Positions 2,636 through 36,452 of a stretch of DNA of 37,837 nucleotides are shown piece after piece. Numbering within the stretch: the stretch's first letter is position 1; every line of letters starts with the position of its first letter. The position numbers were made by a program, and so were the translations under genes. The notes under the pieces are model-generated. The model made no database searches. It was not told the origin of the DNA and saw only the letters and a program-made list of their open reading frames with translations. This stretch comes from a virus, in the IMG/VR virus record IMGVR_UViG_3300025617_000639, positions 1-37,837 of that record, one strand, 5' to 3'.

Positions 2636-3401
2636 CGATAGGCTCCAGCGAGTTAATCTTAATTTCTCCCTCACCAGCCTGGTCACACACTGCCCTTAGA
2701 GGACATGTCTTACAGATTTTTGAATTAGATCGATAGTTCTTCTTTGGCAAAACTTTGTCTTCCCAAGATTTGCGAACTGTTCTCATCCATTCAAATGTCT
2801 GGTCTACCCACTTAATATAATAATCATTTACCTCAACAGGTATCGCCAAGAGTTCATGATTATTTTTGTTCTCATATAGTATAACACCCTTACGCTTTTT
2901 AAGTATTTTCATGTAGATAAGCAACTGAATCAAGTGTCCAGTTTTAGCCTTACGACTCTTCTTACGATACTCAAATCCTTCTTGCATAGCTGTCTTGATT
3001 TCGAGCAGAAGCTCTTCACCCTCCCAGTCTACAAGTGCGTCTCCAAACCCAAAGATGGGTGGATCTTCGTATGTGATCTTGAATTCATCTTGGATTAGAA
3101 TGCCAGAATCTTTTATTGCTTGCTGGATTCTTTCATGGCCTTTAATTCCATTAGTCATATTTGCACCAGCAAATGGGTCTGCATAGTCTTCAAAGGTACC
3201 CCCCTCAAAGGCTAGGTACCAGTATCTGGCACACTCTCCGTGACCGTAGGCAATTGTAGAGGGTGCAAAGCTCTTCTTCTGCTGATGCCTTGGACCACGC
3301 TTAGCAATGTATCCAGAGTTAATCTTTTCAATAAGACCATCCAGGCTGTTGTTCTTGGGAGACTGTGCCCCCATAACGTGCTGCAATAAATTTTTTGACA
3401 T
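2613..3401 (-). CDS. Cas4-family / RecB-like exonuclease with Fe-S cysteines
   Basis: A 262-residue PD-(D/E)XK nuclease. Core motifs are KGHE (88-91), GFGDALVDW with D121, LLEIKTA with E134 and K136, and the following helix GHLIQLLIYM (155-164). The four cysteines that bind a 4Fe-4S cluster in the Cas4/AddB group are present: C57 near the N-terminus, and C230, C233 and C239 in CKTCPLRAVC. Relatives are DNA exonucleases that make single-stranded ends, and phages use them in recombination. No CRISPR array or other cas genes are present, so adaptation is not implied. The ATG at 3401 lacks a clear ribosome binding site and lies 6 bases after the previous stop, so it may depend on coupling. Confidence 0.85.
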   Translation of the reverse strand: MSKNLLQHVMGAQSPKNNSLDGLIEKINSGYIAKRGPRHQQKKSFAPSTIAYGHGECARYWYLAFEGGTFEDYADPFAGANMTNGIKGHERIQQAIKDSGILIQDEFKITYEDPPIFGFGDALVDWEGEELLLEIKTAMQEGFEYRKKSRKAKTGHLIQLLIYMKILKKRKGVILYENKNNHELLAIPVEVNDYYIKWVDQTFEWMRTVRKSWEDKVLPKKNYRSNSKICKTCPLRAVCDQAGEGEIKINSLEPIDEALSMV

Positions 3402-3407
3402 ATTAAG

Positions 3408-3710
3408 TTACCGAGTAATATACTTCAGGGCTGACACAAGATTGTTTACTGCCTCAGCTGCTGTATAGTATAGATTCTTTTTCGGCCTATCTCCTTTATC
3501 TACGTTAGCCATCCATGTCGCCCTTAAAGAAAGCTTGGCGGCAATAGACTGCAGTCTAACAATTTCCATAGTGGCTACCTGAATTGGAATATCTGGCTTA
3601 ATGATAAGCTTAGAGATCATGACAAGTGCATGAGTAAGCTCTTCGTCTTCCATGTATTCATTTATTTCTGCTAAACCATTTACTAGATCAATTGTTGTTT
3701 TGTTTTCCAT
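3408..3710 (-). CDS. Hypothetical all-alpha protein, possibly leaderless
   Basis: A 100-residue protein without a family I recognise. The sequence reads as four or five amphipathic helices with no cysteines and no obvious catalytic motif; the C-terminal part is basic (KGDRPKKN). It lies between the exonuclease-domain gene and the Cas4-like gene. Unusually, there is no Shine-Dalgarno sequence before its ATG; instead TGGTATAAT ends exactly 6 bases upstream, which would place the transcription start on or next to the ATG. The gene is likely real because the frame fits the packed layout, leaving 7 bases on the upstream side and 6 on the downstream side. It may be a small accessory protein of the recombination cluster, which is inference. 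Confidence 0.6.
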   Translation of the reverse strand: MENKTTIDLVNGLAEINEYMEDEELTHALVMISKLIIKPDIPIQVATMEIVRLQSIAAKLSLRATWMANVDKGDRPKKNLYYTAAEAVNNLVSALKYITR

Positions 3711-3716
3711 CAGTTA

Positions 3717-3725
3717 ATTATACCA
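3717..3725 (-). promoter_or_regulatory. Extended -10 promoter, candidate leaderless start
   Basis: The nonamer TGGTATAAT overlaps the last codons and stop of the DEDDy exonuclease gene. It is followed by 6 bases (TAACTG) and then the ATG of the 100-residue gene. This spacing puts the expected start of transcription at the ATG itself. No Shine-Dalgarno sequence is present and I see no good -35 element. The same layout recurs at 29988-29996. Confidence 0.55.
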
Positions 3726-21016: not shown

Positions 21017-21651
21017 TATACCTCTTCCAGGCTCAAGCTTATATTCCAGAAATCAAAATTGCTACCGCCACGTTTTTCAACAGAATACTGGAAGTCGGCA
21101 AAATACATTTCAACCACTTCGTTATACTGAAAAAGACCACTCTTGCTTTCGCCCTCTAAATTTTTATAATTGTCATAAGCCAAGTAGACCCAGAAAGAAC
21201 CTTGGTTATTTTCATACCAGCTAAGCAACTCTACTCCACCAGCACCTTTATCAGTTGTAAAAAGTTCGTCTGAAAGAACTGGATTCCCAGGATTTCTCAA
21301 ATTCCTTTCATTGATTCCTTCGCCAGTTGTCAAAAATCCATCTGCATTAAATGATGCATCTACATTAAAAGCTCTTGATGGCAACAGGTTCCAAGAGACA
21401 TCGATGTTAAGCTTGTCTGCAATATGGTAAGATCTCATCCTGCCATTTACGGTACGAACTCTTTTTTCAATTCTGTCCATTTTCATATTCATAGAGTCTC
21501 TGTTGTCATCAGACAAAACAATAAAATCTGTAAGCTCGTCTCCGTATGGGGCAATAACTCCGTTGGTAACAATGCCAGGATTGTTTGCAAACAAGATTGC
21601 CTGTGGTCTAGCGTACTTACGCCTATTAGCCATATAGATACTGTTTACCAT
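21016..21651 (-). CDS. Putative distal tail (Dit-like) protein
   Basis: A 211-residue protein directly after the tape measure gene, the position where distal tail proteins are usually encoded. It has strands with aromatic residues (SFWVYLAYDNYKN, FDFWNISLSLEEV) and a conserved-looking NIDVSWNLLPSRAF segment (about 84-97). The ATG at 21651 overlaps the tape measure stop as TAATG; a second ATG at codon 7 is an alternative. Dit proteins form the ring at the tail end that holds the hub. The assignment rests on position and size more than on motif, so the family call is moderate. Confidence 0.55.
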   Translation of the reverse strand: MVNSIYMANRRKYARPQAILFANNPGIVTNGVIAPYGDELTDFIVLSDDNRDSMNMKMDRIEKRVRTVNGRMRSYHIADKLNIDVSWNLLPSRAFNVDASFNADGFLTTGEGINERNLRNPGNPVLSDELFTTDKGAGGVELLSWYENNQGSFWVYLAYDNYKNLEGESKSGLFQYNEVVEMYFADFQYSVEKRGGSNFDFWNISLSLEEV

Positions 21652-24600
21652 TAGAACCTGCTGTCCCTAATCCTCTTGTTCTCAATTTGTCGAATGCTAG
21701 ACATTACACTACGTGCAATCTGGTTAGGATCGGACTCAGATCTAACATTAACATTCAAGTTATAATTATACACGCTACCGCTAACATTTTCACCACGATT
21801 AAGCTTTTCAAGGTTCTTAACGCCCAGGCCCTGAACGGCTGGTCTACGAATGACAAATTCACCAGGAGTTAGCAGTGCTGGAATAGAGTCAGAGCCCATA
21901 TATTGTCCACCATTAGCCATTGTGCTAAGGTAATTAGAAACCAATCCCCCCATTGCAAACTGCTGTCTTGGGCCAGACATTGCTTTACGAACAAATCCCC
22001 CCATAGAATACTTGGGGACAAGTCCACCACTGCTAATTGGAATTCTTGTACCACCAATATAAATATATTTTTGCGGCGTTTTAGTTTGATTAGGTGGTCC
22101 CGAACTATAGGTTTTAGTCCTATTAGGTGGTTCCGCACTATAGGTTGTAGTCTTGGTGCGATTTGGTGGCTCACCCCTAACTGGTGGCGGGGTGACGCTT
22201 ACAATAGTCTTTCCGTTTTTTGTGGAAACCCTTACGTCTGGCTTCGGTGCTGGTCTTGGATCAGGATCTGGATCTCTGGGACGGGGGTCTGGAGCAGGAG
22301 CTGGAGCAGGAGCTGGAGAAGACTTCTTACTGGAAGAGGAAGAACGTCCACCGCCGCCAGAAGAAGGTACTGGCTGAATACTAATTGGCCTACCCCCGTT
22401 GAGTGAGTCTATGAGCTTCTCAACAATATCAAGTCCTTCTTTAATTGCATCAACAAACTTGTAGTTGTTTATTCTGGCCTCGTCAATACGTTGTGAGATT
22501 GCCTCCCACTCTTTTTTGGTCTTGCCCAAAACTTCTAGCGCTTCAATGTCTGCTTCTTTTTGAATCTCTGCAAGACGCATTGCCTCTTGTGCTGGCTCTA
22601 GCCTGTCTTCCTCGATGCGGAAGATTTGCTCCTGAATTCCCCTGACTCTGTCGTCCAGCTCATCTCTTGTCAGACCACCTCTGGAGGTCAGTCCAGCAAC
22701 CTGAGAAGCTTGTGCCCTTTCGAGTCTTGCTCTTTCATCTTCTACAGAGGCTTCTGCTGCTGCCGCTCTGGCTTCTTGAATTGCTCTAGCTGCAGCTGCA
22801 ATGTCACCACGGGATAGAGCATCTGCAATGTCGAGCTGGCTTTGTTGTTGCTGTGTAATTCTTTCATTAGCTTCAGCAATTTTATCTAGAGCCTCGTACC
22901 TCTTGTCATATGCATCATTGATAACTTGCTCTTGCTGATCAATCTCTTCTAGACCAGCCTCATAGTCATCGAGCATAAACTCAAGCTTGGCAATATCCTG
23001 CTCTGCGACATCGATGATGGATTGGTCCTTAGACATCTTAGCTTCAAACTCAAGCTCGATCTTGTTTTCCTGAACATTGAAAGACTCCATTGCCTTGCCG
23101 AATCCCTCTTCAAAAATTTCTTCTTGTCCAGATGTGGTAAGCTTTTTAATCTTAAGCTCTAGCTCGGCTTGCTTGTTTGCATTGTCAAGTGCTGTTTGTA
23201 GTGCCTTGGGGTTAATGCTTGGCTCTAGAACTAGTGCCTGTAGGTCTTTGTCGGAAAGAATACTTTCAATCTGTGCCTCGGAAAGCTTGCTTCTATTCTT
23301 GTTAATGTAATTAATAATCTTAGCTTGGTTTGAGAACTGCTTGTTCTGCTCTTTAACGGCATCAGAGATTCTATTCTTACGCTGCTCTTCTTCATCAATC
23401 TCTTCAAATTTATCCATCATCTCTTGAGCTTGCATAGCTGCCTCGGCAGCAGCCTGAATCTCAGCCGAACTCTTAGCAGTAGCAATAGCTGCAGCTAAAG
23501 CAGTGTTTTGTACTGCACGATATGCCGCTTCGTAGCTTGCACCAGCCGAAGTTAGCCTACTAAGAGCAGTAATCTGGTTTCCAACACTAACTGTAATGTT
23601 GTTTTGTTCATTAATAAATTCTCCAATAGTGGCCATGTTAAGAGCATCATTAAGAGACTGCAACTTAGAAGTCATGCCGACAATAGAACCTTGATCGTCA
23701 AATACGAATAGATCATTCTTACGCTTTTCATATTCATCTGGGTCCATGCCAACAATCATCTCAATGAGGTTTTCATTAAGACCAAGACTATTTAGCTGTT
23801 TGTTTAATCCGTTAAAGCTACCGCCAAGCCTATTAGAAACGCTCATAAACTTTTGCACTTCACTAATCGTGTCGTCAAATCCTTGAGTTACACTAACTTG
23901 GGCATCGGCAAAGTTTCTTAGACTTGATGTAATGCTATCAAATGAACTTGTATCGACTACACTAGCACCAGAAGATGATGGACTAAAGCCAGCAAATTCT
24001 TTTTCAAGAGCTAGGCCTTCTTTAACGGTGTTAATAAAATCTACAAAGTCAGTGCTAGCAGTATTAGCAGCACCAGCTGCACCAAGCTGTTGATATGTGG
24101 CATAAAGGGCTGCATCGCCAACAATCTTATAGGCTACTGCAGCATCTACCCCAGCATCAACAAGGTCATAGTATGCTTGAATTTGATCGGCCAACTCGGC
24201 GTTGGCAATTTGCATGTTTTGAATTTCTTGCTGTGCAGTTTGTAACTTAGTAACTTCAAGCTCTTGTGCTCTTGCAGCTGTAGCTTCATTAATAAGACCA
24301 ATCTGCTCTCGTCTCATCGTGTTGAGCTTAGTCTGAGTCTTCTCAGAAACTGTACCATTCTTTTCTAATTCAACATTTGCTTGAGCAATTGTGTCAGCGT
24401 ATTCTGGATCAACCTCTAAACCAAGGGTCAAGCCTTTAGAAAGGATCTCTAGGTCTTCCATGTCTTTAATGTTCTTGGCGAACTCTTGCATGTCTTCGCC
24501 AGAATCCTTGAACAGCTTCTCTGCCGCGTTTTGTACTGCTAGCATTTGAGTTTCTTGATCGGCAATTCCTCGAAGACCGCTCAAAGCTGCGTCAACGCCG

Positions 24601-27600
24601 TTTTCGAATTGATCTGCATCAATAGCTCCACGAGAAAAGGCAGAGCTAACAGCCTTGATACTATTAGAAGTTGCAGCACCAATCTCATTAAGTGGTGCCA
24701 TAATGGCATCCATGTTTTCAGCAGAAGGCATGAATGCATCTTTATAAGTAGAGATTTGACTAGCAGCAAGAGCAAGCCTCTGCTGCTCTCCAAACGCACC
24801 TGCAAACTCGTTAGCAGCCTGTTGACCAGATTGTCTAATTGCATTTACATCAAACCCGCCGTCTTCTCCAAACGGATTAAGTGCTTCAACGTCAATACCC
24901 TCAAAAATATCAAGCTTGCCGCTAGCAATTCCAAGAGCTGCAACAGCTTCCTTTACCTGATCTGCAGTAAAGCCCTCTCCAAACATACGAACGATAAGTG
25001 CTTGCAAAGCAGAAACGGCATTGTCACCAGTTGCCCTAGTAATAGCATTAATCTCATCTTCATACTGCTCTTTAAACTCTTCTAAACCACCAGCTTGATT
25101 AATAGCAGATTCGCCAGCAGCAAATTGCTGGGCATCCATACCTGCAGAACCAACCTTAATATCTTGCTCAAAGACGGAGCCAGTTCTACTAGCACCGACA
25201 AGCTCTGCCAAGCCAGCCATCTTTTCTGAAGTCATATCAACTACAGAGGAAAGCCCCTGAAGACTCTTCTGATATTCGACATGCTGCTGGTAGACTTTCC
25301 AAGCAATACCACCCAAAGCTACCAATCCAGAAATAACCAGACCAGGAATACCAAGGAACTTGGTAAATGCACTAAAGCCAATTCTAATTGCAGTAAAAAG
25401 TTTAGTAAAAATACCAGAAACTTTTTTAACACTAACAGCAGCTCTTATTAAGCCAAGCTGGAAGACTTTAAATCTTCCTAAAAATGCATTACTAAAAGCT
25501 GTCCCCTCAAGAAGTTGCAGAGCCATAGTAGCTCCCGTAATAGCACTAACAAATGGGAACATCTTGCTAGCAGTATCTCCAATTACCCCGTCAAACATGG
25601 ACATTGTTCCAATAAGCCCAGAAAGTCCAAACGTTACACCCATCACCTTGCCACTAAAATTCTTTGTGGCTGCAGCTGACCTAGCTGTTGATTTAGTTGA
25701 CTCTTTAGTTGCTTGTGTCTGAGATTGCTCTGCCACTGTTTGCTGTTTAGTAGCAACAGTCTCTTCTCTCTTGGCTGTAGATTGTCTTACGGACTCGAAG
25801 TCTCCGCTCACACCAGCTCTCTGGTTCCTTCTTTGAGTTCCTTCTGAGGTTGTTCCCAGCCCCGCTAGCAATGCCCTGCCCTCTTCGCTTTGTTGCAAAA
25901 TTGCTATAGACTCATTAGTTAGGTCATACCTAAGCTCTGTAAGAGTGTTGCCAGCAATTTCAAAAATTTGACGAAGCTCGTCTTGCATTTCTGTGACGCC
26001 CTCAAGAGCCTCTCTTTGAATTTCTTCAAAAACCACATATAGTTTAGGATCAAAGGCGTCGCCCTGGGCCTGTTTAATTCTTTGCAAATCTTCCTGAGTG
26101 TCAACAACAAACTGTGCCCCAGCCTTGCTTGCCTTTTGGAGACCAATCTTAATATTATTTTGTAGTTGCTTTAGACCAGGTGCTAATTCGCCAAGGCTTC
26201 CTCCAGCAAGCTGAACAGAACTACGGAATGACTCAATTCCTCTTGAAGCGATGTCTGACGTAAGAGCTTTAATACCTGCACCCTGCTTTGACATTGCTGC
26301 CTGAAGACTTCCTGTAATAGTTTGCCCCATTCCGTGGTAAAGCCTAATAACCTGATCTGGAACATGTCTTGACAAGACCTCTATTTGTTGCTGTACCGCT
26401 GGCGTCAAAGTAATGTTAGGAATAGAAGAAACTTGAGAAGCAGCTACATCAACCCTTCCCCCAACGTGTGCAAAATTACCAGCTTCTTTAGGATATTTTG
26501 CCATTAGTTGTTTGTTTGCCTTCAGTGCTTTTTCTAGCACAGTTTTAGTCAGATTTTCGCTTCCATTTGCTACGCCAGTAATAAATTCTTTAAATTCTTG
26601 TTGCACTTCTTTGCTTGCTGTACCAAGCCTGTCAAGCTCTTTGTACAAGAACGCCTCAATAGCTGCTTGTGATCTGCCACTTCTACCTTGACCAGCAACA
26701 CCAGAAACAAATCCCGCTACCCCCTTGCCTCCAGCAAATCCAGGAATGTTACCAGAAATCATTGCATTGATTAGCGGAGCATACTTTTTAGCCATCTTGG
26801 CTGGGATTACTGCCTCCCCTGGCGTAAGCATTGCTGGTTCCGTATCTTTGTTTCCACTTCCAGGAACAGAGACAACTCCTTCTGCATAACCAGGAACCTT
26901 ACGACCCTTAGAAAGACCCTTAGCCTTCATGGTCTTTCCACCATCAGTTACAATTGGACCTCTGAATTGACGGGCAGCATTGTTTGCCCTCTCGTATGCC
27001 GCCGTCAGCTTGCCCAGTGCCGATGCCTCTACGGTAAAGGTTTGGCTCAAAGTCTGGTGCACCTGGTCAAGGGATGCGGCAATAGCAGCGGATTCAATCT
27101 GCTCAGAATTCATGTAGCTTGTTTGCTCAGCAAGATTCTGACTTCCATTTCTAAATCTTTGCATGAACTGATTAATTGTTGCGATACCTTTAATAAAGTT
27201 AGCGATAAGGTTTGCCGTCAAACCTATGACCATTAGCAGAACTGGGGCAACTGCACCAATAGCGGCAGCAAGAAGTACTATAAACTTTTTGCCACCATCG
27301 CCAAGATCATTAAATCTTTGCAAAAGGTTAGTCACCCACTCAATAACTGGTGTGGCTAGCCTTAAGAACTCTTCTCCAATCGGTGCAAGAGCTGCCTGGA
27401 ATCTTTCTAGAGCTGCAGTAAACTTTGTTGCTGCAGATTCTTCTACCCTGCCAAGCTCCCTACCTGCAATTGTTGCCAAGTCAGAAGAGCTGCTGTTGAT
27501 AAGCTCTAGAACTGTTGCTGCCTGACTTCCATCCTTAACAACATTCTGAAACAGAGTAGACATTCTAGCAAACTGGAACTTACCAAACAGAGTTTCAATC

Positions 27601-28910
27601 GCCCTTGCCTTTTCAAGTGGCTCAAGGGTATCTAGTGCATTTGCAAGCTCTAAGATTGTGCCACGAAGATTTCCAGTATTTCTCTCAACAATGCCAGTAA
27701 CATCAATTCCATAGCCCCTCAAAGCGTCTTTTGCTCTTTGTGTTGGGTTAATCAATCGACCAAGAGATGACTTTAGAGCGTTGGCACCCTGTGCTGCATT
27801 AATTCCACCTTCACGCATAGCCGTTAGGAAGAATGCAAGATCTTCTACGCTACCGCCAAGCTGTGCAACAACACTACCAGCACGAGGAACTGCTTCGTTG
27901 AAGTCGTCAATAGAGAGAATAGTTTGGTTCTCAGCTGCGTTAAGGAAGTTGACCTTGTTGGTTAGATCTTCAACTGAAATACCAAAAGCATTTGTAAGAC
28001 CAATGGTTGTATTAAGTGCTTCCTCCTGACTCATACCACCAAGCACTGAAAGCCTTGTTGCTTCTGTTACCTGTGCGGTTAGGTCTGCACCAGTTTTACC
28101 CATCTGAGCAACGGTAGAGGCTAGACCAATTGTTTCTTCTACAGCAACACCAAACTTTGTAAACTCAGTAGCAAGCTCACGCATATCGCTAAGGGCTTGC
28201 TCTGTCTGTGCCCCCGTTGTAAACAGATCTCCATATACACGCTTAAACTTAATTGCCTGTTGCTCAAGCTGCATAAATGATTTACCAGCTTGAGTAGCAA
28301 AAATTGCTAGCGGAATAGTAAAACCAACCATAAGCTGACGACCAGCCCACTGTGTATTCTTACCCCAGTTTAGAAGATTGGTAGACCCTTGCTTAATAAG
28401 TTGATTAAAGATTTGTTGTTTCTGGGCAGCAATCGCGGTCTGTGTACCCAGATTAGTCATGTCAAGTGTAGTTGGCCTTACGGCAATGGCCTTCATCGCA
28501 CCGTTAGCGTCACGACCCATCTTGATGTATTGGGTCTGAAGATCCTTGACTCGTTCTCTGGCTACCTTCTCAATAGTGTTGAACTCAGAGGTGAATACCT
28601 TACCAAATCGTTTGGTAGAGGCTGTCCCGTATTTAAAATACTGCCCCAGAGAAAGCTTATTTTTCTCCAGGGCAGTAGTAAATGCTTCAGTTGTTGTTTT
28701 TACCGTAGTTAGCCTAGCGGTAAATTGACCAGTAGCATTAATGCTATTAACTAAGTTTTGTTGATATCCAGCAACAGAGGCTTGGGCAGCAGCACTGCCC
28801 TTTGCCATGTTGGTGTAGAGCTGAGAGAGAGATCTCTGAAGATTTTTGATGGCCGCTAATGCTTGCGACGTATCCGCATTTATGTTAATGTTGGCATTAG
28901 TTTCAGCCAT
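21651..28910 (-). CDS. Tail tape measure protein
   Basis: A 2419-residue tape measure, the largest gene in the window. It sets tail length and is ejected before DNA; by the usual rule of about 1.5 angstrom per residue the tail would be near 360 nm. Residues 170-700 match the TP901-type core, with GFTIPLAIFA near 195 and long coiled helices. Hydrophobic segments occur near 565-600, 1115-1150 and 1210-1230. The motif LTPGEAVI (near 695) recurs as LLTPGEFVI near the C-terminus. A Pro/Ala/Asp-rich linker and three PPNRTKT-type repeats lie at about 2190-2280. The ATG at 28910 has AAGGGTG upstream. No lysozyme or peptidase motif was seen. It follows the tail chaperones, as expected. Confidence 0.93.
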   Translation of the reverse strand: MAETNANININADTSQALAAIKNLQRSLSQLYTNMAKGSAAAQASVAGYQQNLVNSINATGQFTARLTTVKTTTEAFTTALEKNKLSLGQYFKYGTASTKRFGKVFTSEFNTIEKVARERVKDLQTQYIKMGRDANGAMKAIAVRPTTLDMTNLGTQTAIAAQKQQIFNQLIKQGSTNLLNWGKNTQWAGRQLMVGFTIPLAIFATQAGKSFMQLEQQAIKFKRVYGDLFTTGAQTEQALSDMRELATEFTKFGVAVEETIGLASTVAQMGKTGADLTAQVTEATRLSVLGGMSQEEALNTTIGLTNAFGISVEDLTNKVNFLNAAENQTILSIDDFNEAVPRAGSVVAQLGGSVEDLAFFLTAMREGGINAAQGANALKSSLGRLINPTQRAKDALRGYGIDVTGIVERNTGNLRGTILELANALDTLEPLEKARAIETLFGKFQFARMSTLFQNVVKDGSQAATVLELINSSSSDLATIAGRELGRVEESAATKFTAALERFQAALAPIGEEFLRLATPVIEWVTNLLQRFNDLGDGGKKFIVLLAAAIGAVAPVLLMVIGLTANLIANFIKGIATINQFMQRFRNGSQNLAEQTSYMNSEQIESAAIAASLDQVHQTLSQTFTVEASALGKLTAAYERANNAARQFRGPIVTDGGKTMKAKGLSKGRKVPGYAEGVVSVPGSGNKDTEPAMLTPGEAVIPAKMAKKYAPLINAMISGNIPGFAGGKGVAGFVSGVAGQGRSGRSQAAIEAFLYKELDRLGTASKEVQQEFKEFITGVANGSENLTKTVLEKALKANKQLMAKYPKEAGNFAHVGGRVDVAASQVSSIPNITLTPAVQQQIEVLSRHVPDQVIRLYHGMGQTITGSLQAAMSKQGAGIKALTSDIASRGIESFRSSVQLAGGSLGELAPGLKQLQNNIKIGLQKASKAGAQFVVDTQEDLQRIKQAQGDAFDPKLYVVFEEIQREALEGVTEMQDELRQIFEIAGNTLTELRYDLTNESIAILQQSEEGRALLAGLGTTSEGTQRRNQRAGVSGDFESVRQSTAKREETVATKQQTVAEQSQTQATKESTKSTARSAAATKNFSGKVMGVTFGLSGLIGTMSMFDGVIGDTASKMFPFVSAITGATMALQLLEGTAFSNAFLGRFKVFQLGLIRAAVSVKKVSGIFTKLFTAIRIGFSAFTKFLGIPGLVISGLVALGGIAWKVYQQHVEYQKSLQGLSSVVDMTSEKMAGLAELVGASRTGSVFEQDIKVGSAGMDAQQFAAGESAINQAGGLEEFKEQYEDEINAITRATGDNAVSALQALIVRMFGEGFTADQVKEAVAALGIASGKLDIFEGIDVEALNPFGEDGGFDVNAIRQSGQQAANEFAGAFGEQQRLALAASQISTYKDAFMPSAENMDAIMAPLNEIGAATSNSIKAVSSAFSRGAIDADQFENGVDAALSGLRGIADQETQMLAVQNAAEKLFKDSGEDMQEFAKNIKDMEDLEILSKGLTLGLEVDPEYADTIAQANVELEKNGTVSEKTQTKLNTMRREQIGLINEATAARAQELEVTKLQTAQQEIQNMQIANAELADQIQAYYDLVDAGVDAAVAYKIVGDAALYATYQQLGAAGAANTASTDFVDFINTVKEGLALEKEFAGFSPSSSGASVVDTSSFDSITSSLRNFADAQVSVTQGFDDTISEVQKFMSVSNRLGGSFNGLNKQLNSLGLNENLIEMIVGMDPDEYEKRKNDLFVFDDQGSIVGMTSKLQSLNDALNMATIGEFINEQNNITVSVGNQITALSRLTSAGASYEAAYRAVQNTALAAAIATAKSSAEIQAAAEAAMQAQEMMDKFEEIDEEEQRKNRISDAVKEQNKQFSNQAKIINYINKNRSKLSEAQIESILSDKDLQALVLEPSINPKALQTALDNANKQAELELKIKKLTTSGQEEIFEEGFGKAMESFNVQENKIELEFEAKMSKDQSIIDVAEQDIAKLEFMLDDYEAGLEEIDQQEQVINDAYDKRYEALDKIAEANERITQQQQSQLDIADALSRGDIAAAARAIQEARAAAAEASVEDERARLERAQASQVAGLTSRGGLTRDELDDRVRGIQEQIFRIEEDRLEPAQEAMRLAEIQKEADIEALEVLGKTKKEWEAISQRIDEARINNYKFVDAIKEGLDIVEKLIDSLNGGRPISIQPVPSSGGGGRSSSSSKKSSPAPAPAPAPDPRPRDPDPDPRPAPKPDVRVSTKNGKTIVSVTPPPVRGEPPNRTKTTTYSAEPPNRTKTYSSGPPNQTKTPQKYIYIGGTRIPISSGGLVPKYSMGGFVRKAMSGPRQQFAMGGLVSNYLSTMANGGQYMGSDSIPALLTPGEFVIRRPAVQGLGVKNLEKLNRGENVSGSVYNYNLNVNVRSESDPNQIARSVMSSIRQIENKRIRDSRF
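22080..22175 (-). repeat. Three imperfect tandem repeats in the tape measure gene
   Basis: Three units of about 31 to 36 bases that encode PPNRTKT/PPNQTKT followed by a Tyr-Ser linker, next to a Pro/Ala/Asp-rich stretch at about 22230-22330. The copies differ at several bases, so the array is not a fresh duplication. Likely a flexible linker in the C-terminal part of the tape measure; it may vary in copy number between relatives. Confidence 0.7.
28639..28677 (-). other. Strong RNA hairpin inside the early tape measure coding region
   Basis: On the sense strand, arms of 16 bases (outer TACTGCCC with GGGCAGTA, inner GAGAAA with TTTCTC) pair across a 7-base loop; the two central positions form G-U wobbles in RNA, so the stem is continuous. 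TTTT follows directly. It lies about 230 bases after the tape measure start. It resembles an attenuator or mRNA stability element, but could be chance; the run of T is short for an intrinsic terminator. Confidence 0.5.
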
Positions 28911-28934: not shown

Positions 28935-29252
28935 TTAGGCGTTGTTCAAAACATTGCCCATGTTAGTCATGTTGATACCCGAAGCCTCTTCAACAATTTC
29001 GTAGACGGTAGGAAGATCAATGTTGTCTTCCAGTGTCTTAACATCATCAGCCAGTTCTGGCTTGTACTGCTTCATAGCGATTTGTACACACTCCATAAGA
29101 AGTGTCATTGACTTATCGTTATCTTCTGCTACATCTGCAATCTTTGCAAACTTGGACATAAATTCTCTGAGTAGTGAGACCTTTAGTGGTCTTACAACAA
29201 TCTCTGTCCCATCAATTAGCTTTACTTGCTTAGCTTCATTTGTCGTTGCCAT
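28935..29252 (-). CDS. Tail assembly chaperone, short G-like paralog
   Basis: A 105-residue protein immediately before the tape measure gene, where tail assembly chaperones are encoded. It is a clear paralog of the N-terminal half of the neighbouring 226-residue protein: both share LIDGTE, RPLK, LREFM, MKQ and IDLPT-Y in the same order and spacing. It lacks the C-terminal T-like part. G-type chaperones coat the tape measure and recruit tail tube subunits before assembly. The ATG at 29252 has GAAAGGGAAA about 6 bases upstream. Its own TGTTATAAT promoter-like site lies about 33 bases upstream. Confidence 0.82.
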   Translation of the reverse strand: MATTNEAKQVKLIDGTEIVVRPLKVSLLREFMSKFAKIADVAEDNDKSMTLLMECVQIAMKQYKPELADDVKTLEDNIDLPTVYEIVEEASGINMTNMGNVLNNA

Positions 29253-29284
29253 TTTACTGTTTCCCTTTCATAAGAACACTATTA

Positions 29285-29293
29285 ATTATAACA
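29285..29293 (-). promoter_or_regulatory. Extended -10 promoter before the short chaperone
   Basis: TGTTATAAT lies in the 48-base gap between the two chaperone genes, about 33 bases before the ATG at 29252, leaving space for the GAAAGGGAAA ribosome site. There is no clear -35 hexamer. It would let the short chaperone and the tape measure be transcribed separately from the long chaperone. Confidence 0.55.
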
Positions 29294-29300
29294 TAATAGA

Positions 29301-29981
29301 CTAATTAATTTTTTCATATTTTAGCCCTATGCCAAGGCCAAATCCGTTCTGTTCGGCTTTTGTACCCTGAAAAGATAGTATATCATTAGGATCGTTAGTT
29401 TGTCCACCACTAAATACTCTTGCCTTCATTTCTTCCCAAGCGTTGCTTTCTTTTCCAGATTCTTTGTCAAGGTCTACCCCCTGCATTGCTGCCATAAATT
29501 TCTTTTCTTGATAGTCTAAGTCTCTCTTGGAGCCCAGTGTTGCAATAAGCTCTGGCATGGAAAGTGAAAGCTCTAGCTCCTCATAGTCTTTCCAAATACC
29601 AAGCAAAAAGACTTCCGACTCTAGCTCTGCCAAATCAAGGTCTTCCCAAGTAGACCCACTATCAGTAGCTTGTTTTTTTACCTCTTCGTCTGGATTATCA
29701 ATTTTAATTCCAGCAGAAATATCCAAGAGTTTATAAATAGTTGGCAAGTCTATGCTATCTTCTAGATCGTCAATTGTTTTTATTTCTGGATAAAATTGTT
29801 TCATGGTTACCCTGGCACATTCAGCTAGCAACCGAATAGCTTGCTCATCATTAACGGCTATTTTGATAAGCTCAAAGATTTCCATAAACTCCCTAAGATA
29901 TTTAATCTTTAGGGGCCTTATCTCAAGCTCAGTTCCGTCTATTAGCTCAATTACCGCTGTGTCATAAATTTTAGTTGCCAT
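29301..29981 (-). CDS. Tail assembly chaperone, long G-T fused form
   Basis: A 226-residue protein in one reading frame. Residues 1-92 are the G-like domain shared with the 105-residue neighbour. Residues 111-175 (TWEDLDLAELESEVFLLGIW and SMPELIATL) look like the T-like extension that other phages add by a -1 frameshift. Here it is fused without a shift. A run of seven A's reading A-AAA-AAA-C lies at codons 101-103 just at the domain border, a classic slippery heptamer; a -1 slip would give a stop three codons later. The ATG at 29981 has no Shine-Dalgarno sequence, and TGCTATAAT ends 6 bases upstream, suggesting a leaderless mRNA. It follows the major tail gene and its terminator. Confidence 0.82.
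   Translation of the reverse strand: MATKIYDTAVIELIDGTELEIRPLKIKYLREFMEIFELIKIAVNDEQAIRLLAECARVTMKQFYPEIKTIDDLEDSIDLPTIYKLLDISAGIKIDNPDEEVKKQATDSGSTWEDLDLAELESEVFLLGIWKDYEELELSLSMPELIATLGSKRDLDYQEKKFMAAMQGVDLDKESGKESNAWEEMKARVFSGGQTNDPNDILSFQGTKAEQNGFGLGIGLKYEKIN
29673..29679 (-). other. A7 slippery run at the G/T domain border
   Basis: On the sense strand seven A's in the frame A-AAA-AAA (codons GTA AAA AAA CAA) at residues 101-103 of the long chaperone. After a -1 slip the ribosome would read ACA AGC TAC and then stop at TGA, giving about 106 residues, close to the 105 of the separate short paralog. Polymerase slippage is also possible. Seen directly; function is inferred. Confidence 0.55.
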
Positions 29982-29987
29982 CTAATT

Positions 29988-29996
29988 ATTATAGCA
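29988..29996 (-). promoter_or_regulatory. Extended -10 promoter, candidate leaderless start
   Basis: TGCTATAAT is followed by 6 bases (AATTAG) and then the ATG of the long chaperone. No Shine-Dalgarno sequence is present. It lies just after the terminator of the major tail gene, so the chaperone would restart transcription on its own, at lower or differently timed levels. The same arrangement is seen at 3717-3725. Confidence 0.6.
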
Positions 29997-30001
29997 AAAC
30001 A

Positions 30002-30032
30002 AAACAGCCCAGGGGTTTAACCTGGGCTGTTT
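30002..30032 (-). terminator. Rho-independent terminator after the major tail gene
   Basis: A perfect 12-base-pair stem (AAACAGCCCAGG and its complement) closes a 7-base loop. On the minus strand it is followed by TGTTTTGC after the stem's own TTT, giving a T-rich tail. It lies about 28 bases after the stop of the major tail gene and limits read-through into the chaperone genes. This is the clearest terminator in the window. Confidence 0.88.
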
Positions 30033-30059
30033 CTATTAAGTTATGACTAGTTAGTAGTC

Positions 30060-30704
30060 TTATGATACTAGGTCTAGTGTGCGGTCAACGATCTTACCGT
30101 AAGATGCGTCATCGTTTGGAAGCAAACGGAACGAAACCTCAAACATAGTGGGTTCGTCACGCTTAGCCGAAACGGTAACGCTCTCGATGGAAAGAGCACG
30201 GTATGCAACGTAAATACGCTCAATACCTTGACCAATTGCACAGTCACCTGTACCTGGACCAACAGCAACGAGACCACGCTCAACTGGACATTCACCGATG
30301 TCACCAGCTGACATGTTCATTACTGGGTTTGCTTCTGCAAACTCTCCTACACCAGCTGTGGCAAGATCTGCATCTTTACCAGCAACAGCGAACAAAAGGT
30401 TCTCGAGTGTGGACTCTGCGAAAGCGGTGTTTAGATTAACCTGCATACCCTGCTTGTAAAGCTTGGCAACGTCGAGTAGCTGGTCAACCTGAACTTCACC
30501 GAAGTCGGGCTGGAACACGATCTCAAGACCGTTCATGGTGTAACCAACGTTACGGAAGTCTGCGTCATCCTGGAGAGTATCCTTGAATGTAGTGTCTTCC
30601 ACAACGTCTGGCAGGTCAGCATCAGTAAGTGTTCCACCATCGTAAGTGAACAAAGCTGCTGCACCAACGATGATATTCGCACTTGATCCGCGTGAATATG
30701 CCAT
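30060..30704 (-). CDS. Major tail protein (tail tube subunit)
   Basis: A 214-residue protein identified as the major tail tube subunit by its place after the tail terminator gene and before the chaperone pair, and by its composition: Gly/Ala/Val/Thr-rich beta strands, few Lys, and a typical start AYSRGSSANIIVGAA. The strand IERIYVAYRALSIESVTVSAK is followed by a block (EPTMFEVSFRLLPND) common in phage tail tube proteins. I use the ATG at 30704; the in-frame GTG at 30713 is part of the GAGGTG ribosome binding site. It has its own upstream promoter and downstream terminator, as expected for a protein needed in many copies. No Ig-like extension is attached. Confidence 0.85.
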   Translation of the reverse strand: MAYSRGSSANIIVGAAALFTYDGGTLTDADLPDVVEDTTFKDTLQDDADFRNVGYTMNGLEIVFQPDFGEVQVDQLLDVAKLYKQGMQVNLNTAFAESTLENLLFAVAGKDADLATAGVGEFAEANPVMNMSAGDIGECPVERGLVAVGPGTGDCAIGQGIERIYVAYRALSIESVTVSAKRDEPTMFEVSFRLLPNDDASYGKIVDRTLDLVS

Positions 30705-30755
30705 AGTTGTCACCTCTTCTTTCTATTGAAGTAGTAGGCGCGTTTCCTCGCTATA

Positions 30756-36423: not shown

Positions 36424-36452
36424 ATTATAGCACCTTTTTATAATCTTTACAA
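36424..36452 (-). promoter_or_regulatory. Promoter of the protease/scaffold/capsid transcript
   Basis: A -10 TGCTATAAT (36432-36424) with a -35-like TTGTAA (36452-36447) at exactly 17 bases, in the short gap after the portal gene. It is the most complete promoter in the window. Its -10 ends 9 bases before the first ATG (36414), so the transcript would have a very short leader or none; the protease may be expressed near-leaderless. Confidence 0.65.

Follow-up and report, generated by a model that had tools for sequence, protein, structure and literature searches.

A phage tail assembly chaperone locus in which gene duplication has probably replaced programmed frameshifting

The ribosomal frameshift linking the tail assembly chaperones G and GT is a textbook example of a conserved recoding event, thought to be kept because the ratio between the two products must be fixed. 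Here we describe a phage locus in which this programmed -1 frameshift has very probably been replaced by a gene duplication, with a continuous GT gene and a free-standing short paralog, G2, dividing the long and the short roles between them. The locus lies in a stretch of viral DNA of 37,837 nucleotides (IMG/VR record IMGVR_UViG_3300025617_000639), called the window throughout. There is, in addition, a reasonable likelihood that the frameshift has been resolved into two genes whose stoichiometry is now set by split initiation, with a leaderless GT gene under a mostly degenerate promoter on one side, and a G2 gene with a consensus promoter and a Shine-Dalgarno sequence on the other. The locus would then be an independent parallel to the two-gene chaperones of T4-like phages, with the ancestral state still present in close relatives.

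The gene order on the minus strand is major tail protein, GT, G2, and tape measure protein (Table 1), so that the pair occupies the same place between the major tail and tape measure genes as G/GT in lambda. A sequence-only reading of the window had taken the long form for a single open frame and the second gene for a copy of the G part only, and both points stand. The 226-residue frame is open in 99 distinct relatives, and GT and G2 share a common N-terminal domain (BLASTP: 44% identity and 74% positives over 88 aa, E=1e-25), in which the motifs LIDGTE, RPLK, LREFM, MKQ, and IDLPT-Y are present. The G profile phrog_10504 matches both residues 1-106 of GT (E=1e-22) and G2 (E=3e-16), whereas the T profile phrog_10474 matches residues 129-214 of GT (E=4e-16), the part aligning with the separate T frame of relatives; of these two PHROGs, G2 matches phrog_10504 only. 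At the gene level, the G domain is thus present in the short and the long products, and the T domain only in the long one.

Both profiles are listed in PHROGs as being of unknown function. The Streptomyces phage counterparts of these genes carry a tail assembly chaperone annotation, and six relatives of G2 reach phrog_1932, a tail assembly chaperone family. The 105-residue product has, then, both the profile homology and, through the annotation of its relatives, the link to tail assembly on which the earlier reading had staked itself. A Pfam search returned nothing useful for GT or G2, and a sequence search of solved structures with the chaperone proteins found no chaperone. The predicted structures of GT and G2 are of moderate confidence (mean pLDDT 76 and 77), and they point weakly to the HK97 tail assembly chaperone 2ob9: among PDB structures it ranks first for G2 in Foldseek (E 0.79), and VIA-align ranks it first for GT (Z 4.3) and second for G2 (Z 4.1). 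In a library of viral models, the leading named matches are tail assembly chaperones.

Table 1. Features of the chaperone locus and its neighbours, in window coordinates.
Feature	Position	Strand	Evidence
GT, fused G and T tail assembly chaperone, 226 aa, one frame	29301-29981	-	ORF and PHROG profiles; 99 distinct fused relatives
G domain of GT, residues 1-106	29664-29981	-	phrog_10504
T domain of GT, approx. residues 117-226	29304-29633	-	phrog_10474 at 129-214; aligns with separate T frames of Streptomyces phages
G2, free-standing short G paralog, 105 aa	28935-29252	-	BLASTP and phrog_10504; 89 distinct relatives
Extended -10 box TGCTATAAT, predicted leaderless GT promoter, ends 6 nt before GT ATG	29988-29996	-	
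Intrinsic terminator-like hairpin, 3' of major tail protein gene, directly 5' of GT promoter	30001-30033	-	
Extended -10 box TGTTATAAT, predicted G2 promoter in GT-G2 gap	29285-29293	-	Exact TGnTATAAT in 92/92 relatives
AAAGGG, Shine-Dalgarno of G2	29263-29268	-	
A7 run, A_AAA_AAA in frame, in GT linker; chance-level heptamer, no conserved frameshift site	29673-29679	-	
Major tail protein, Ig-domain type	30060-30713	-	phrog_2175 E=1e-28; position matches annotated major tail protein of relatives
Tape measure protein, 2419 aa, start 24 nt past G2	21651-28910	-	phrog_10030 E=5e-101; PF10145 E=2e-28

Relatives were gathered by scanning IMG/VR with the long protein, a Streptomyces phage G, and T and G profiles, together with annotated phage records, and all forward frames of the resulting 257 loci, including the window, were scanned by HMM. 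The layouts are bimodal. In 113 loci, among them those of cultured Streptomyces phages (Stanwilliamsviridae), T lies downstream of G in the -1 frame and a second G is absent, while in 138 loci G and T share one frame and a second G follows. Five more are fused with no second G, their contigs ending before or inside it (two still show its first codons), and one locus has T only. None of the 257 combines a frameshift with a second G; rarer layouts could have escaped, since the loci were drawn from the best-scoring matches of each scan. After the removal of identical proteins, 99 fused GT, 89 G2, and 79 frameshift sequences remain, and these distinct counts are the reliable ones, some contigs appearing under several locus ids. 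The pairwise alignment and the search for one-gene and two-gene forms that had been suggested as checks have thus given homology on one side and, on the other, single-G relatives using a -1 frameshift locus. Wherever it is found, G2 comes after GT and before the tape-measure gene. At the level of sequence, the two-gene arrangement of the window is confirmed as real, and its reading as a duplicated tail chaperone holds.

The fused-layout relatives are all uncultivated contigs and form a large group of freshwater-type phages; the frameshift layout is found in the Streptomyces phages and in some freshwater-type relatives. Regarding the host, only an actinobacterial kinship can be inferred. A scan of 84,980 species genomes gave one match (CAINGU010000031.1), a frameshift-type locus with a CCCAAAC site on a 110 kb contig assigned to the bin of an uncultured cyanobacterium; it may be a phage placed in the wrong bin, and it does not decide the host. 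A further contig (IMGVR_UViG_3300008110_002846) lacks the G domain at 2900-3300, where the first G codons run into T and the tape-measure gene follows directly, representing either a natural deletion or a chimeric assembly.

A canonical slippery heptamer, mainly CCCAAAC/T, AAATTTA, or GGGAAAC, is present in 61 of the 76 frameshift linkers, and the sister group would thus make its long form through a programmed -1 frameshift, as lambda does. In the fused group, where the 99 distinct relatives are all single-frame, heptamers of mixed kinds occur in 19 of 98 linkers, against a mean of 24 under synonymous codon shuffling. Judged from these linkers, the slippery site has been lost in the fused GT group. 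The window itself carries an A_AAA_AAA run just past the G domain, with a stop in the -1 frame three codons on, which could be taken for a reversed, dnaX-like frameshift: GT would be the product of the zero frame, slippage on the run would lead to the nearby stop and yield a short G, and G2 would have some other role. However, the heptamers of the fused linkers stay at chance level and vary between relatives in kind and place, and the closest relative, L003, has none. Therefore, the A7 run is not evidence of frameshifting, and this reading, which we consider highly improbable, was rejected. The same homopolymer at the junction, in a window taken from a metagenome-derived virus collection, might also raise the suspicion that an ordinary frameshift locus was turned into one open frame by a sequencing or assembly error. 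Against this, the 99 distinct fused sequences come from many metagenomes, most of them have no A7 run, and all are open across the junction; the two-gene layout, moreover, recurs in 138 of the 143 fused loci, the other five being the truncated contigs mentioned above. Artefact or chance is refuted by these numbers, and the probability we would leave to it is negligible.

The relationship between the copies was analyzed in trees resting on about 100 columns. In the careful tree, from which four loci (L117, L087, L115, and L132) were left out, the fused-gene G domains form one clade (100/100) and the G2 proteins another (99/95), with the frameshift Gs surrounding both. Measured in changes per column, the fused-gene clade has a fivefold longer stem (0.82) than the G2 clade (0.16). 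G2 is closer to the nearest frameshift Gs than the G domain of GT is (56% vs 41% identity), in 99 of 99 genomes, and is also the more conserved within its group (67% vs 55%). Thus, the free-standing copy would be the one keeping the old G, whereas the G domain inside GT has diverged. These separate, well supported clades fit the old duplication followed by specialisation that the sequence-only reading had suggested. In a quick tree, L117 falls beside the fused genes on a very long branch, and in a tree of the T domain the frameshift locus L121 (2560-3410) nests among the fused loci with weak support, on too few columns to lean on.

Rather than by tandem duplication of the resident gene, G2 could have been acquired by recombination from a related frameshift phage, with the same function as proposed here. 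The frameshift Gs of L114, L121, and L167 join G2 in the careful tree (85/55), apart from the long fused-gene branch, and two of these near frameshift relatives, L114 and L121, carry an extended -10 promoter downstream of T and ahead of the tape-measure gene, a position that G2 and its promoter now occupy. Left unconstrained, the tree keeps the fused-gene Gs and G2 apart; however, a tree forced to join them is not rejected (AU p=0.44), and the place of the long fused branch is unsure. Acquisition is therefore a tenable but rather unlikely origin for the second copy. What became of G2 afterwards admits another account, in which it took a new function, for instance in the baseplate or in regulation, and GT alone does tail assembly. 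The two G sequences are only about 39% identical on average, so that some specialisation is certain. However, it is G2, and not the G domain of GT, that has stayed closest to the ancestral short G and most conserved, always before the tape-measure gene and with its consensus promoter and strong Shine-Dalgarno sequence kept, and a new function seems improbable to us. The preferred reading remains a division of the long and short roles between GT and G2.

The start signals of GT and G2 are opposite, and this is what is new here. The median Shine-Dalgarno energies are -10.2 kcal/mol for the frameshift G genes, -2.9 for fused GT, and -10.3 for G2, and the sequence is stronger for G2 than for GT in 96 of 98 genomes. 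In the frameshift G genes, an extended -10 box lies ~31 nt before the start. The GT box has its modal position at -12, six bases from the ATG, in 62 of 93 loci, and falls within one 4-nt window in 86 of 93 (at most 9 and 21 in shuffles), a spacing from which transcription is predicted to begin at the ATG itself. In 24 of the 93 loci the distance is slightly larger (-13 to -15), and a leader of 1-3 nt could remain. Leaderless starts are known to favour AUG (PMC9031893), and the start codon is ATG, as would be expected of them, in 52 of 53 non-redundant fused genes vs 28 of 45 frameshift Gs. A terminator-like hairpin stands just upstream of GT in 50 of the 53 non-redundant fused loci (1.75 when shuffled), while no terminator-like hairpin is found in the 60 nt before G2. 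With its fixed -10 spacing and no Shine-Dalgarno sequence, GT is probably leaderless.

Contrary to this, all 92 loci have an exact TGnTATAAT ahead of G2 (shuffle mean 0.5), and the box lies wholly inside the GT-G2 gap in 88 of 94 pairs. Its match to the consensus is better than that of the GT box in 73 of 94 genomes, equal in 21, and worse in none. The window belongs to the 21 with equal matches, TGCTATAAT before GT being as good as TGTTATAAT before G2, and its Shine-Dalgarno energies are +1.0 for GT and an only moderate -5.5 for G2; the difference between the two genes would here rest on the type of start and on the two transcripts of G2. The earlier suggestion that separate genes and promoters could set the ratio is backed in so far as GT and G2 are each preceded by a conserved extended -10 box of their own and differ in the type of translation start. 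Such opposite signals would favour the short over the long form, as frameshifting does elsewhere. Across the window, 14 extended -10 boxes lie on the gene strand and 1 on the other. Two of them, at 3717-3725 and 36424-36432, end 6 and 9 nt before gene starts at 3710 and 36414, both on the minus strand, which suggests that these genes are also leaderless or near-leaderless.

In the mechanism we propose, an ancestral G/T frameshift locus would have gained another G, placed ahead of the tape-measure gene. The first copy would have become the continuous GT gene, with the loss of the slippery site and the Shine-Dalgarno leader, and the second, G2, would have retained an ancestral-like G and a strong leader. 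In lambda, about 30 gpG are needed per gpGT, both products attach to the tape measure protein, and tail-tube subunits are brought in by the T part (PMC5009743). From the homology and co-occurrence of the two genes, the loss of the slippery site, and the differing promoter and start signals, all of which can be read in the sequences, we infer the roles and the ratio of their products: the tape measure protein would be coated by G2, the abundant short chaperone, while GT, made in small amounts, would act as an adaptor that recruits tail-tube subunits through its T domain. GT would be kept low by its degenerate, usually weaker -10 box and by leaderless translation, while G2 would be read twice, from its own consensus promoter and on the GT transcript, and translated from a strong Shine-Dalgarno sequence. 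However, the translation of leaderless mRNAs in actinobacteria and mycobacteria is not always weaker (PMC7148126), and the scarcity of GT may therefore owe more to the difference in promoters and to G2 being read from two transcripts.

A frameshift-free lineage with frameshifting sisters offers a direct test of whether tail assembly needs the frameshift itself or only the ratio, and a ready experimental case of leaderless vs Shine-Dalgarno initiation setting the stoichiometry of subunits. It is also a warning for annotators, since the main chaperone may be encoded by a separate short gene preceding the tape-measure gene.

The tape-measure gene itself may have an unusual start in other phages. 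In Stanwilliamsviridae Streptomyces phages and Rhodococcus phage Trina (L083-L089, L094, L095, L101, L105, and L108), its reading frame stays open on the 5' side of the ATG that is annotated or comes first. This extension encodes a conserved N-terminus (I-E/D-N-I-Q/N-I-R-F in the Streptomyces phages) and reaches a conserved ATA codon; it contains no ATG, GTG, or TTG, and the CTG found in many of these phages is absent from L095 and L087. Thus, the annotated tape-measure starts of these phages are probably too far downstream, and a start at AUA (or CUG) is possible.

The closest known systems include lambda gpG/gpGT and the HK97 gp13 family: there too, the short and the long form have an N-terminal domain in common with each other, the order is tail tube, chaperones, and tape measure, and T is restricted to the long form. 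Contrary to lambda, it has no frameshift, but a continuous long gene and a separate short paralog with its own promoter and Shine-Dalgarno sequence. The Stanwilliamsviridae, represented by the Streptomyces phages BillNye, Genie2, Braelyn, and Moab, are closer, with homologous G and T (about 35-43% identity), the same gene order, and the same extended -10 type of promoter; their G and T, however, are in -1 frames with a mostly conserved slippery heptamer, and a single G carries a Shine-Dalgarno leader. As in actinobacterial leaderless genes (PMC3898074), transcription is predicted from the -10 spacing to begin at the ATG, whereas here the gene concerned is one member of a stoichiometric phage assembly pair. 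In the open-access literature searched, we found no description of a duplicated chaperone in siphophages. The two-gene solution is already known from T4-like phages, whose chaperones work without frameshifting (Vladimirov, Gautam and Davidson 2022, as described in PMC10885494). According to that description, a short gene is accompanied by a long gene fusing the short part and a downstream part, which is also the arrangement found here. The leaderless GT start, the frameshifting relatives, and this T4-like precedent had all escaped the sequence-only reading. The T4-like phages are myoviruses of another lineage, and the siphophage case is a separate one, in which the change can be followed through frameshifting relatives, and signals that could set the ratio can be read at the gene starts.
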